Shown here: in pieces, positions 2,287-6,838 of the stretch | Position numbering within the stretch: the first letter of the stretch is position 1 | Layout of the letters: each line of letters starts with the position of its first letter | IMG/VR virus record: IMGVR_UViG_3300030117_003223 | Coordinates: 1 to 64,000 of that record | Reading direction: 5' to 3' (one strand) | DNA length: 64,000 bases | DNA from: a virus | The notes under the pieces: model-generated | What the model was told of the DNA's origin: nothing | Databases searched by the model: none | What the model saw: only the letters and a program-made list of their open reading frames with translations | Program-made: the position numbers and the translations under genes

Positions 2287-3719
2287 TTTAGTTTTACCTT
2301 GCTAATTTCATAATCAAACTGTTCACTGTTGTAAATATTTAGTCGCTCTGTGAAGTGTCTCAACGTATAATTGTCTTTTCCTAAGTCATCAGCGATATCA
2401 AATATTAAAACTGAATCCTTACCTGATGATATACGCAACCCTCTCCCGATAGATTGGAGCACTCGTATTTTTGATTTTGATGGACTGGCGAGCACGATAT
2501 TATTAATGTTGCGAATATTAATCCCAGTAGAAAAAGTACCGTAGCTTGCAATGGTAGTAGATGATATGGAGTTATCAACAATACCACGAATTTCTTCACG
2601 CTGTTCAGCGCTCGTTGCACCATAGACAAAATGGACATTTTCTTTCCCCTTCATTCCCTCATATAGAACTTTACCATGTTTCTCTACTAACTGAAACAAA
2701 CATAGAGTATTCCCATTAAGATGCTGTAAAAGATTACAGCAAAAATCAATTCTTTTTTTGTTGGTAACAATATAATCCAACTCTTCAGCATAAGTCATCT
2801 TTTCTCTAATATTAGGATGTTTAAGAACTATACACTTTATTTTGAGATTTGCAAGTGACTTGCTTTCTATAAGTTTTTTAGTTGACGTAACTTTTTCTAC
2901 AGGACCAAACAATCCCTCCAATACAAGTCTATGTGTCTGTGTCCCATCAAGTGTGCCCGTAAATCCAAACCTGTATTTACAACCATGCAGTTTGGTCATG
3001 ATTCCTGTGAGAGACTTTGCCTTAAACATATGTGCCTCGTCACCAATCACACACCCAAACTGCTCAAAGTATTTTTTGGGCATCTTATATAAAGATTGCC
3101 ACGTTGATATCACAACATCTCTCTCTACCTTTGTTGTATATCCCTGATATACTTTCTGACAATAAGTTCTGGGTGACCATCCGTAATCTTCAAAGTCACT
3201 GTACATCTGCTCCACCAGAGAAGTGGTGGGAACCAGAATGAGTGTCTTGAGTCCTGCCATGTGGTAGTAACGAACTAATGAATATATTATAAGTGATTTA
3301 CCAGATGCAGTAGGACTAAGAATGAGGGCACGATCCACTCCAACGGCATGAGAGAAAGCTTGAATTTGGTAATCTCGTACTTTGATGGATTTACCTTGCG
3401 ATTTGGGTTTGAGACTTTTGATAAACCCTCTAGAGACCGTATCCACAACATTCCGCTCATTTCTTACTCCCTCTTCTAATTTATATTCTATGTTGTTATC
3501 ACCACAGTATTTTATGATGTAGTCAAGAAGTCCAACATATATCTCACCATTTGCAGGCGAGAAAAGTCTTATCTTACCATCCCAAATACGTTTACGATAC
3601 ATGGGCATGAACTTAGCGCCAGGCACTTCAAACGTAAAGAACTCAGTAAGTTCACGTCGAGTAGATTCAGACATGCCATCTAGTATTAGATAGACTTCAT
3701 TCTTTTTAGATATGTGCAT
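2283..3719 (-). CDS. uvsW: DNA/RNA helicase UvsW
   Basis: Superfamily 2 helicase that unwinds R-loops and branched recombination intermediates and helps switch T4 from origin-dependent to recombination-dependent replication. Counting from the longest start at 3749, it has an N-terminal UvsW domain (about 11-100, with FF-x-F and WDGKIRL), Walker A SPTASGKS (145-152), DEAH (237-240), FTGTLDG (263-269) and a C-terminal motif VI-like SIGRGLR. The start at 3719 (MHISKKNEV) matches the T4 UvsW N-terminus best and overlaps the upstream gene by only 14 nt. ATG at 3743 and GTG at 3749 are alternatives, and none of the three has a strong ribosome site. Confidence 0.93.
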   Translation of the reverse strand: MHISKKNEVYLILDGMSESTRRELTEFFTFEVPGAKFMPMYRKRIWDGKIRLFSPANGEIYVGLLDYIIKYCGDNNIEYKLEEGVRNERNVVDTVSRGFIKSLKPKSQGKSIKVRDYQIQAFSHAVGVDRALILSPTASGKSLIIYSLVRYYHMAGLKTLILVPTTSLVEQMYSDFEDYGWSPRTYCQKVYQGYTTKVERDVVISTWQSLYKMPKKYFEQFGCVIGDEAHMFKAKSLTGIMTKLHGCKYRFGFTGTLDGTQTHRLVLEGLFGPVEKVTSTKKLIESKSLANLKIKCIVLKHPNIREKMTYAEELDYIVTNKKRIDFCCNLLQHLNGNTLCLFQLVEKHGKVLYEGMKGKENVHFVYGATSAEQREEIRGIVDNSISSTTIASYGTFSTGINIRNINNIVLASPSKSKIRVLQSIGRGLRISSGKDSVLIFDIADDLGKDNYTLRHFTERLNIYNSEQFDYEISKVKLK

Positions 3720-4302
3720 TTTGTAATGTGTTTGGTTCACCATATTCACCGCGAACTAATATGTTCCATGATATACTCATACGGTCCTCTGGGGTAGGGG
3801 GAACCCAATGCATGAGCCAAGATGGAAAGATAAGTGCAGAGTTTACCTGAGATTTAAATTCCACCATACTTGAGTTGTCGGCATTTGGTGTATTTCTGGG
3901 TTTAAAATATGATGCACTTGGTCTTGGGTCAAAAAATTGAATTGGTGACCCGCTCTTCAAATAGTATACTCCAGATAAAATATTATTAGAGTGTGTATGG
4001 GGTGCATGAGATTCTCCCTTTTTTAATTCATTACCCCACATGTTAGTCATCTCAACACTGTCAAATTCGTACCCATCTCTTTTTAATATTTGGTCAGTCA
4101 ATACCATAATTTGATTTACAAGTGGTTTGAAAAATGATATTTTATGGAGAGTATCGTCTCTAGTAGTTGGTCCACCTTCATCCCAACCATTACAACACTT
4201 CTTAATATAGTTTGTCATATGTTTTCTATCATACTCACTCAAATCCAGAAGCAGCACATGAATGTTTGTTGGAAAACACTTGTGTGTAATTACATCAACC
4301 AT
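3706..4302 (-). CDS. 2OG-Fe(II) oxygenase, TIGR02466-type
   Basis: Predicted 2-oxoglutarate/iron dioxygenase. The sequence shows HAPHTHSNN near residues 99-107, SGVYYLKSG, then FPSWLMHW (distal His near 165) and an R-M-S-I-S-W-N strand whose Arg (near 174) would hold 2-oxoglutarate. This is the signature of the small oxygenase family common in marine T4-like phages; its substrate is unknown. Start chosen at ATG 4302 because GGAG lies 9 nt upstream; the longer ATG at 4317 overlaps the upstream gene more and has no ribosome site. It sits in a run of oxygenase and radical SAM genes between uvsW and uvsY. Confidence 0.82.
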   Translation of the reverse strand: MVDVITHKCFPTNIHVLLLDLSEYDRKHMTNYIKKCCNGWDEGGPTTRDDTLHKISFFKPLVNQIMVLTDQILKRDGYEFDSVEMTNMWGNELKKGESHAPHTHSNNILSGVYYLKSGSPIQFFDPRPSASYFKPRNTPNADNSSMVEFKSQVNSALIFPSWLMHWVPPTPEDRMSISWNILVRGEYGEPNTLQNAHI

Positions 4303-4850
4303 GATACGATACTCCATCTAGTTCCTTTTGTGACAACCTCTGCTCCATGCGGGAACATAAAATTAGATGGGAACACTACAGAAGACCTAGCTTTAGGTTT
4401 GATTCTCTTAGTCGCGACTGTAAATTCGCCTCCCTCATAATCATCGTTTAGATACAACAAAACAGTCGCGTGTGGATATCCGTAGTGTTGTCCATGACTA
4501 TGATGAATGCTATCATAATGTTTAGACATAAATCCTCCCTCTGAGTATCGGTTAATGCGAAAGTCAGTAACGTGTTGCACAGAAAAATATGGATGGTCTG
4601 CCATGTACATTTCTATAGAATCTATAAAACACTTTTTAAGGGGTTCATATAATTCGTGTGTATTACGAATCCAAAACTCATCCATATTTACTCGTTCATT
4701 AGAATCCTCTAAAGATAAATTACTACCATCTCTTGCAAATCCAGATTTTTCAAAATTAAGATTTGATTTCATAACCCTGTCAGATAGACTTTGGGAAACT
4801 ACGTTTGTATACACTCCAATAAACTTTGAAATATTATAATCAATGTCCAT
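4290..4850 (-). CDS. Prolyl-4-hydroxylase-like 2OG-Fe(II) oxygenase
   Basis: A second, different dioxygenase. Seen directly: a double-stranded beta-helix pattern with HYD (H111-x-D113), a LYLNDDYEGGEF core strand, then FPSNFMFPHGAE (H168) and R178 in TRWSIVSW. H-x-D...H...R is the iron and 2OG site of the P4Hc family. Family members hydroxylate proline or lysine in proteins or small molecules; the substrate here is unknown. ATG 4850 with AAAGG about 9 nt upstream is preferred over GTG 4856. It overlaps the SPASM-like gene upstream by 11 nt and the next oxygenase downstream by 13 nt, so all are translated from one message. Confidence 0.85.
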   Translation of the reverse strand: MDIDYNISKFIGVYTNVVSQSLSDRVMKSNLNFEKSGFARDGSNLSLEDSNERVNMDEFWIRNTHELYEPLKKCFIDSIEMYMADHPYFSVQHVTDFRINRYSEGGFMSKHYDSIHHSHGQHYGYPHATVLLYLNDDYEGGEFTVATKRIKPKARSSVVFPSNFMFPHGAEVVTKGTRWSIVSWLM

Positions 4851-5115
4851 TATCACACACCTTTAAACATATATCTGGCCATTCGTCTTCTTTGTTCTCT
4901 ATAACGTCGAAGAAATTTATCCACTCATCTGAAAATATTATCTCTTCAATTGAGTCAACGTTATCAATTTTTAGTCTCTCTTTATATAGAGAGGATATCA
5001 AACCGTGTTTGGGGTCACTCCCATCGTTGACACGGGTATAACAACAGGGTAATATATAACCTGATGGATGTTGACTTAAAGAACAATCTCGCTCAAGACA
5101 CTCTGGTTTTTTCAT
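4840..5115 (-). CDS. Stand-alone SPASM-like Cys-rich protein, partner of the radical SAM gene at 5112-5663
   Basis: 91 residues with Cys at 6 and 11, a GYILPCCYT core and a C-terminal C-x-x-x-C near the end (CLKVC). In single-chain radical SAM/SPASM enzymes this is the C-terminal auxiliary-cluster domain ('G-x-x-x-PCC'). Here it is a separate gene starting by an ATGA overlap with the radical SAM gene, so the two are likely made together and act as one enzyme. The same split occurs in the pair at 34464-35424. Function of the pair is unknown. A sequencing frameshift is unlikely because the split recurs in a divergent paralogue and the second gene has a clean start. Confidence 0.75.
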   Translation of the reverse strand: MKKPECLERDCSLSQHPSGYILPCCYTRVNDGSDPKHGLISSLYKERLKIDNVDSIEEIIFSDEWINFFDVIENKEDEWPDICLKVCDNGH

Positions 5116-5663
5116 GTCGGACCACTTTTAAAAGTTCTGGGTTCTCTAGTTAAAAAGGTCATACCCTTTGATAACGACTTAGCTTCTTTAATATGGTCTT
5201 TATTATAATCAAACACTAGGTATTGCCACACCACGTTCATCCCCATATCAACAGCCATCTTCATTACTTCAAAAAGTTTTACACCATCTTGATTAACTCT
5301 GTACTTATGACTCTCCTCTGGTAGTCCATCTAAACCAAAATACCAAGTTGCATTTGGGTTAGCATTGAACGCTTTAACATACCAATCCATACTTTTATGA
5401 GAGGCAGCATTGTGAACTGTAACCACTTTATTTTTGCAGTAGTTTAAAAACTCAATAAATTTTGGATGAAATACAGGGTCAGATACACCACCACAAAATT
5501 CTAACCCATCAAAAAAATTACAGACCTTTACAAAATCCTCAAAGGGCATATCCTGACCATGTATATGCCAACCAAGATTTTTATAAATGGTTCTTCTACA
5601 CTCTGGACATGCAAGGGTGCATCTTGTAGTTATGTCAAGATTTATTTTTCGGCGGTCAATCAT
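5112..5663 (-). CDS. Radical SAM enzyme, catalytic domain only
   Basis: 183 residues. C-x-x-x-C-x-x-C (C15, C19, C22, TRCTLACPEC) binds the 4Fe-4S cluster that cleaves S-adenosylmethionine; EFCGGVSDP (about 55-63) occupies the GGE-motif position, and later beta strands include VTVHNAASH and WYFGLDGLPEESH. The protein stops where a C-terminal SPASM domain would begin, and that domain is encoded by the overlapping gene downstream. The segment GLDGLPEESHKYR-x-NQDG is almost identical in the paralogue at 34777-35424, so the two arose by duplication. Substrate unknown. Confidence 0.85.
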   Translation of the reverse strand: MIDRRKINLDITTRCTLACPECRRTIYKNLGWHIHGQDMPFEDFVKVCNFFDGLEFCGGVSDPVFHPKFIEFLNYCKNKVVTVHNAASHKSMDWYVKAFNANPNATWYFGLDGLPEESHKYRVNQDGVKLFEVMKMAVDMGMNVVWQYLVFDYNKDHIKEAKSLSKGMTFLTREPRTFKSGPT

Positions 5664-6113: not shown

Positions 6114-6234
6114 AAAAAAAGTGAGCAGAGTTGATTACTCTCCTTGTGTATATTGACCCTAGTGAGGCTGCCGAGTAGTCACTAGATAATTAAGTCTCAG
6201 ATTTAATAAATGTTAAAGTTTATCGCATCTGCTC
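6114..6234 (-). ncRNA. Putative structured late RNA between gp3 and uvsY
   Basis: A late octamer (6247-6240) predicts +1 at 6234, five bases after it. The RNA would begin GAGCAGA (6234-6228) and its 3' part carries UCUGCUC (6129-6123), a perfect 7-bp closing stem, followed by AC and seven U (6120-6114). Inside are CUAGUGA (6185-6179) with UCACUAG (6165-6159), another perfect 7-bp stem, a weaker GAUAA/UUAUC pairing, and a competing AGAGU/ACUCU hairpin at 6127-6141 that shares bases with the closing stem. No open reading frame was found on either strand. It could be an independent small RNA, a regulated uvsY leader, or a terminator-controlled attenuator. It lacks T-arm features, so it is not a normal tRNA. 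Confidence 0.5.
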
Positions 6235-6239
6235 GTTTC

Positions 6240-6247
6240 TATTTATA
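6240..6247 (-). promoter_or_regulatory. Late promoter octamer in front of the putative RNA / uvsY
   Basis: Exact TATAAATA, immediately after the TAA stop of the gp3-position gene (stop at 6250-6248). Predicted start of transcription is 6234. Confidence 0.75.
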
Positions 6248-6838
6248 TTAACTAATCGCTTCAATCTCATAAATTGAATATGCAAAAGTTGCGCTAACTG
6301 AAACATACTCAACGTCCGTAGCTGCTTGAGTAAAATCCAATGCGTCTAGAGAGGTGGGATATAAGTCACGAAAGAAAACGTTAGCAACAGGATTGTTTTT
6401 ATTTGAAAGAATTGTTAGAGACGCATCAGAGAACATTCCTCTCACGGCGGTTGCTGGTTGCACGTCACCGATATCTGTGCTTGTGCCTACTGTCGTAGAT
6501 GGTGTTGCAGATGTAGTTGTACGAAAGTTTTTAAACTGATCTGTACTTTTTGGGAAACCAATCGCAGTAATCCACTCATGTATAGATAGATAGTTTTCTA
6601 AAAATTCATCACAAATAAATGATATCTGCAATGGGTCAAACGTAACTTTGTCTCCCATCATTGGTAGGTCAACAAGTCTTGTTGGTGAAAATGAATTACC
6701 CATGCTGATGGATGGAACCTGTGCAGACACAGTAAAAAACTCCACCTTTGGAAGTTGGTGAATATTAAACTTAAACTGTGTTGGACTCAGATAGTCTAAT
6801 TTATCAGGTTGTCGTTCTATTGCTGCGGTTATTGCCAT
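6248..6838 (-). CDS. Tail completion / tube-like protein at the gp3 position
   Basis: 196 residues starting MAITAAIERQPDKLDYLSPT. The middle reads TFDPLQISFICDEFLENY-x-x-IHEWI and the end SVSATFAYSIYEI, a layout typical of tail-tube-fold proteins (tube, terminator and tube-initiator types). In marine T4-like phages the gene between gp23 and uvsY is usually annotated gp3, the tail completion and sheath stabiliser protein; gp54-like tube initiator is the main alternative. ATG at 6838 is used because any upstream start would translate the gp23 terminator. There is no ribosome site; the late octamer lies exactly five bases upstream, predicting a leaderless message. Confidence 0.72.
   Translation of the reverse strand: MAITAAIERQPDKLDYLSPTQFKFNIHQLPKVEFFTVSAQVPSISMGNSFSPTRLVDLPMMGDKVTFDPLQISFICDEFLENYLSIHEWITAIGFPKSTDQFKNFRTTTSATPSTTVGTSTDIGDVQPATAVRGMFSDASLTILSNKNNPVANVFFRDLYPTSLDALDFTQAATDVEYVSVSATFAYSIYEIEAIS

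Follow-up and report, generated by a model that had tools for sequence, protein, structure and literature searches.

A candidate family of structured RNAs starting at a predicted late promoter, mostly upstream of uvsY, in marine T4-like phages

Few structured RNAs are known in T4-type phages. T4-like phages are a very abundant group in the sea. Some replication proteins of T4-type phages, such as that of gene 32, are autoregulated through leader structures (PMC3014915), and in T4 the promoter ahead of uvsY serves as an R-loop origin, oriF (PMC3016281). The cultured phage Melnitz is reported to encode a tmRNA and a glutamine riboswitch (PMC9004378). Here, we describe a predicted structured RNA that lies in the position of the T4 origin transcript, directly upstream of uvsY.

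The window is a stretch of 64,000 nucleotides and part of a 64.5-kb virus record. The genes around the RNA are located on its minus strand in the order gp23 (8254-6914), gp3-like tail tube/completion protein (6838-6248; PHROG 45 tail tube, E 3e-32), RNA, and the recombination mediator gene uvsY (6099-5668; Pfam PF11056, E 4e-32), with GGAG at 6108-6105 on its 5' side. The gp3/tail tube stop codon (6250-6248) is adjoined by the T4-type late promoter octamer TATAAATA (6247-6240), followed by GAAAC and, from the predicted +1 at 6234, by GAGCAGA. On the 3' side of the same strand, TCTGCTC ends at 6123 and is followed by AC and seven T (6120-6114). The window contains 12 copies of the octamer, where 3.8 are expected, and 11 of the 12 are on the coding strand. 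Promoter scans recognised the late octamer at the RNA locus, while the sigma70-type scan yielded no promoter there. No open reading frame is present within the RNA, as stops break all three frames. A preliminary description of this DNA had reported the octamer behind the gp3 stop, the +1 at 6234, a perfect 7-bp end-to-end stem, the run of seven U and the missing reading frame; all of these are present in the letters at the positions given.

Three further observations were made in the neighbourhood. Between gp23 and gp3, a strong intrinsic-terminator-like hairpin of 11 pairs (6883-6858, minus strand) is followed by TTTTCTTATA. Directly after this hairpin, a second late octamer is located at 6851-6844 (minus strand), which would serve gp3. 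Genes for a 2OG-Fe(II) oxygenase and a radical-SAM-like protein (3706-5663, minus strand) are inserted between uvsY and a uvsW-like helicase gene.

A search with uvsY as query yielded 80 viral contigs, most of which carry the same RNA upstream of the gene. A pattern search with the 5' motif added further relatives among the matches listed, and uvsY of the OM43 phage Melnitz as query led to a further divergent clade. Among the matches listed, 96 distinct core sequences from marine T4-like phages, including Melnitz, were obtained. Within the same scope, all 96 have an octamer-like sequence 12-15 nt before the first RNA base (exactly 13 nt in 82), so that the predicted start noted in the window is conserved. 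The start of the RNA is thus placed by prediction at the late +1 or within one or two nucleotides of it, which is the arrangement of a T4 late leader, with a late octamer and a +1 at the first base of the RNA. The search behind the 96-sequence set demanded paired 5' and 3' hexamers. The count was repeated without any requirement on the 3' half, and in 84 of the resulting 85 distinct 5'-anchored candidates the 5' hexamer recurs downstream as its exact reverse complement (GAGCAG in 77, GAGUAG in 5 and GAACAG in 2); the remaining one pairs via one G-U. The RNA is conserved across uncultured marine lineages, and its cultured carrier is Melnitz, a phage of OM43 strain H5P1, in whose record (MZ577098) the RNA is predicted to start at 129674 and to end just behind 129756.

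No copy above noise was detected in cyanophages in which gp3 and uvsY overlap or are nearly adjacent, nor in the pelagiphages Mosig and HTVC008M. Weak covariance model matches of about 15-24 bits were treated as noise, because antisense matches occur among them. Three pattern matches in bacterial genomes were unconvincing, and the sole covariance model hit among these reached 18.8 bits. In relatives of Mosig-type pelagiphages (L295-L374), the region upstream of uvsY harbours no such RNA and instead features a sigma70-like sequence, CTTTACA ... TATGATAGGAT, which suggests early rather than late uvsY expression in these phages. Searches of the window RNA and six divergent relatives against Rfam 15 with strict and permissive E-values gave no family at the RNA, in line with the preliminary description, which knew of no named family here, and the RNA is not described in the searched passages of the Melnitz genome paper (PMC9004378). 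Judged against the open-access literature and Rfam 15, these phage RNAs form a new structured family.

The conserved fold predicted from the relatives is one interrupted helix, composed of P1, P1b and P1c, with the hairpin P3 inside, and sets the first bases of the RNA against the last. The RNA is about 85-120 nt long in the family. In the window, the core recognised by the covariance models R1 and R2 measures 112 nt from the P1 5' strand to the P1 3' strand (6234-6123, minus strand, as are all elements below). The P1 strand GAGCAG (6234-6229) pairs with CUGCUC (6128-6123), and relatives show GAGCAG/CUGCUC, GAGUAG/CUACUC and GAACAG/CUGUUC. In P1b, GAU (6224-6222; GRU in the family) is paired with AUC (6135-6133; AYC in the family), for which the column pair 17-134 gave an E-value of about 0.01; among the matches listed, GGU/ACC occurs 58 times and GAU/AUC 37 times, with one exception. 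In P1c, ACUUU (6219-6215; ACUUN in the family) is paired with AGAGU (6141-6137; NARGU in the family; column pair 26-124, E about 0.01), and the variants are ACUUU/AAAGU, ACUUG/CAAGU and ACUUA/UAAGU. P3 spans 6196-6155 with the outer pairs GAC (6196-6194) and GUC (6157-6155), which are swapped to GUC/GAC in other clades. The inner stem P3b (6185-6159), with CUAGUGA at 6185-6179 and UCACUAG at 6165-6159, is the second stem of the preliminary description; it is real, but occurs only in clades with the long form, where relatives have CUGAUGA/UCAUCAG or GUAGUGA/UCACUAC and the stem is 100% paired wherever present.

Two covariance models were compared. Model R1, comprising P1, the alternative 5' hairpin P2 and P3, was built from a seed of 14 sequences outside the Melnitz clade, and its search recovered this clade. 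The R1 alignment carries no P1b or P1c information. In a test of this alignment with a tree-based null, P3 ranked highest among 3,003 column pairs (E about 0.05) and P1b came next (E about 0.2); the two pairs after them, which are not significant alone (E about 0.55 and 0.9), connect the 5' loop ACUUN with the 3' purine segment NARGU. Model R2 comprises P1, P1b, P1c and P3. In its alignment of 63 sequences, 98.1% of the predicted pairs form, compared to 30-51% with partners slid, and 78 double-change cells were counted against 19 in shuffles. Under the tree-based null, the three best-scoring column pairs, of 3,240 in all, lie one each in P1c, P1b and P3 (E 0.01, 0.01 and 0.07). The R1 result is the less biased of the two, because the R2 alignment leans to R2. 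Both models detected Melnitz and its relatives, which were held out, with higher scores under R2 for nearly all of them (40.1 against 29.3 bits for L193, 34.2 against 21.5 bits for L243), L294 being an exception. The scan was a home-made, R-scape-like test with a tree-based null. Covariation among relatives had been named in the preliminary description as a check on its central proposal, a discrete RNA that starts at the late +1 and is closed end to end. Compensatory changes were indeed found, the top covarying pairs lie in predicted helices, and the closing stem is conserved in dozens of relatives, so that this proposal is supported. A covariance model of the family can be used for metatranscriptome searches.

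Energy minimisation, also suggested earlier, is less telling. The window RNA has a minimum free energy of -23.4 kcal/mol (z -1.10), which is an ordinary value, and the corresponding fold lacks the closing stem and contains P2 instead (AGAU..GAUAAA/UUUAUU..AUCU, 6230-6199). The case for the RNA therefore rests on comparison. P2 and P1b make use of the same GRU bases, indicating that the two compete or that the lower part of P2 forms a pseudoknot with P1b/P1c. Across 18 clusters, pairing between an element's own arms exceeded that between swapped arms both for P2 (p 0.02) and for P1b (p 0.0014), and 56% of the P2 cells are paired compared to 33-41% with partners slid. By these comparisons of predicted pairs, support is strong for P1b and moderate for P2. 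The energies of the P2 and P1b/P1c states are close in several relatives, while the window favours P2 by about 4.6 kcal/mol. The switch-like competition proposed earlier may exist with other partners, namely P2 and P1b. The stem originally held to compete with the closing stem, AGAGU/ACUCU, is present in the letters, but is neither conserved nor covarying: 60% of its cells are paired, which is no better than shuffles (467/500), and the partner of AGAGU is ACUUU in the 5' half (P1c) rather than ACUCU. A hairpin P4 with a GNRA-like loop, suspected in the Melnitz clade, was dropped because the tree-null test paired its segment with the 5' loop.

The U-run behind the closing stem corresponds in the window to AC and seven U (6122-6114), and most of it is conserved among relatives. 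T was found at positions 3-7 after P1 in 15, 20, 20, 21 and 17 of 24 clusters, with background values beyond. Within the first 14 nt behind P1, 11 of the 24 clusters contain a T-run of five or more, and in nine the longest run is shorter than 4. From its composition, the tract is terminator-like and widespread, but weak or missing in several clades. A GC-rich helix followed by a U-tract, as in intrinsic terminators, is present in the window (weak in some clusters); the terminator scan makes no call at P1, and the P1 strands are separated by about 80-115 nt, unlike those of an ordinary terminator hairpin.

Of the 215 places among the matches listed, 195 have the RNA flanked by gp3 and uvsY. Nine of the 215 have another gene upstream instead of gp3 (L024 type), and other genes lie between the RNA and uvsY in six (L050, L076, L098, L160, L166 and L189). 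In nearly all relatives uvsY follows within about 20-40 nt, and the distance from the RNA end to the uvsY start is mostly 18-29 nt. Since the RNA precedes or follows other genes at some loci, it is not strictly tied to uvsY. In the related phages L050 (903-2273) and L024 (664-1977), proteins that look similar by eye are inserted on opposite sides of the RNA, as if the promoter-RNA unit marked an insertion site. With inserts on either side and neighbours that change, the unit behaves as a cassette that usually precedes uvsY. In L148, L173, L176 and L203, the stretch from the RNA to uvsY carries a TTGACA/TAATAT-like (sigma70-like) promoter, which may provide uvsY with early expression of its own.

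With its predicted start at the late promoter and its end in a stem and U-run, the RNA is probably a stop or leader ahead of the recombination gene. We tentatively favour, at somewhat below an even chance, a late-transcribed leader in which the closing helix and U-tract terminate transcription conditionally, ahead of uvsY or of another gene in its place. The RNA would be the leader of a late transcript entering that gene. With P1-P1b closed, the polymerase would tend to stop at the U-tract, leaving an RNA of about 120 nt; with the P1b strands held elsewhere by P2, a protein or a ligand, transcription would continue into uvsY. The conserved late start, the covarying fold, the U-rich 3' end, the position between gp3 and uvsY and some support for P2 argue for this reading. 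The patchy U-tract, the distance between the P1 strands, the lack of a call in the terminator scan, loci without adjacent uvsY or gp3 and the moderate support for P2 argue against it. If true, it would show a route to late control of a recombination mediator gene. The RNA carries its own predicted start and stop, and together with its promoter and U-tract it makes up a complete unit, as expected of an autonomous small RNA that ends after P1 and has trans targets among phage or host RNAs or proteins, with uvsY as a mere neighbour. Such an RNA would also explain why the unit persists with other genes downstream (the six loci named above) or upstream (L024 type), and fits the sigma70-like promoter before uvsY in L148-type phages. 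We nevertheless regard it as rather unlikely, since uvsY follows closely in nearly all relatives, mostly without another recognisable promoter, so that complete termination would leave uvsY unexpressed, and since the most conserved loop, ACUUN, is locked in P1c and offers no obvious free seed. Phrased more broadly, a late regulatory device of about 90-120 nt, either a ligand- or protein-sensing switch timing late recombination genes or a trans-acting RNA binding host or phage machinery, is conceivable but doubtful. If true, it would be, to our knowledge, the first of its kind at T4-type late promoters of abundant marine phages.

The location of the RNA at the extreme 5' end, with P1 beginning at nucleotide 1, would also suit a leader that controls translation or mRNA stability, of the T4 gene 32 operator type. 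In this case, UvsY or another phage protein would bind the 5' fold, or the fold would protect the mRNA 5' end against decay, and autoregulation of replication proteins through leader structures is established in T4-type phages (PMC3014915). However, P1 stops upstream of the Shine-Dalgarno sequence and leaves it uncovered, unrelated genes also follow the RNA, and the U-tract is left unexplained, which makes this improbable. An origin RNA like that of T4 ori(uvsY), in which the R-loop of a transcript begun upstream of uvsY primes DNA synthesis, would start at the same position as oriF (PMC3016281), but the latter relies on a middle promoter together with an A+T-rich unwinding element, whereas the promoter here is late and selection appears to act on base pairs of the RNA along its entire length; we consider it very improbable. 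Chance repeats in an AT-rich spacer would agree with the non-significant folding energy of the window copy and are refuted, to near certainty, by the covariation, the conserved start and the wide distribution.

Compared to known systems, the locus resembles attenuators and riboswitch leaders with intrinsic terminators in its place at the 5' end of an operon, its possibly mutually exclusive helices and a GC-rich helix followed by a U-tract. It differs in that the closing helix bridges about 110 nt between the first and last transcribed bases, in having no known ligand and no Rfam aptamer, in a U-tract that is not universal and in its T4-type late promoter. The glutamine riboswitch and tmRNA reported for Melnitz (PMC9004378) are structured RNAs of the same cultured phage, yet Rfam holds both of these families and gave no match to the RNA here. 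By its description, the T4 gene 32 leader pseudoknot likewise forms a structured leader, in front of a recombination/replication gene of T4 type (PMC3014915), whereas the predicted fold here has several helices, begins at nucleotide 1 and is followed by a U-tract instead of adjoining the ribosome site. The T4 ori(uvsY)/oriF transcript shares a start just upstream of uvsY (PMC3016281); oriF combines a middle promoter with an unwinding element, while the RNA described here combines a predicted late promoter with a conserved fold.
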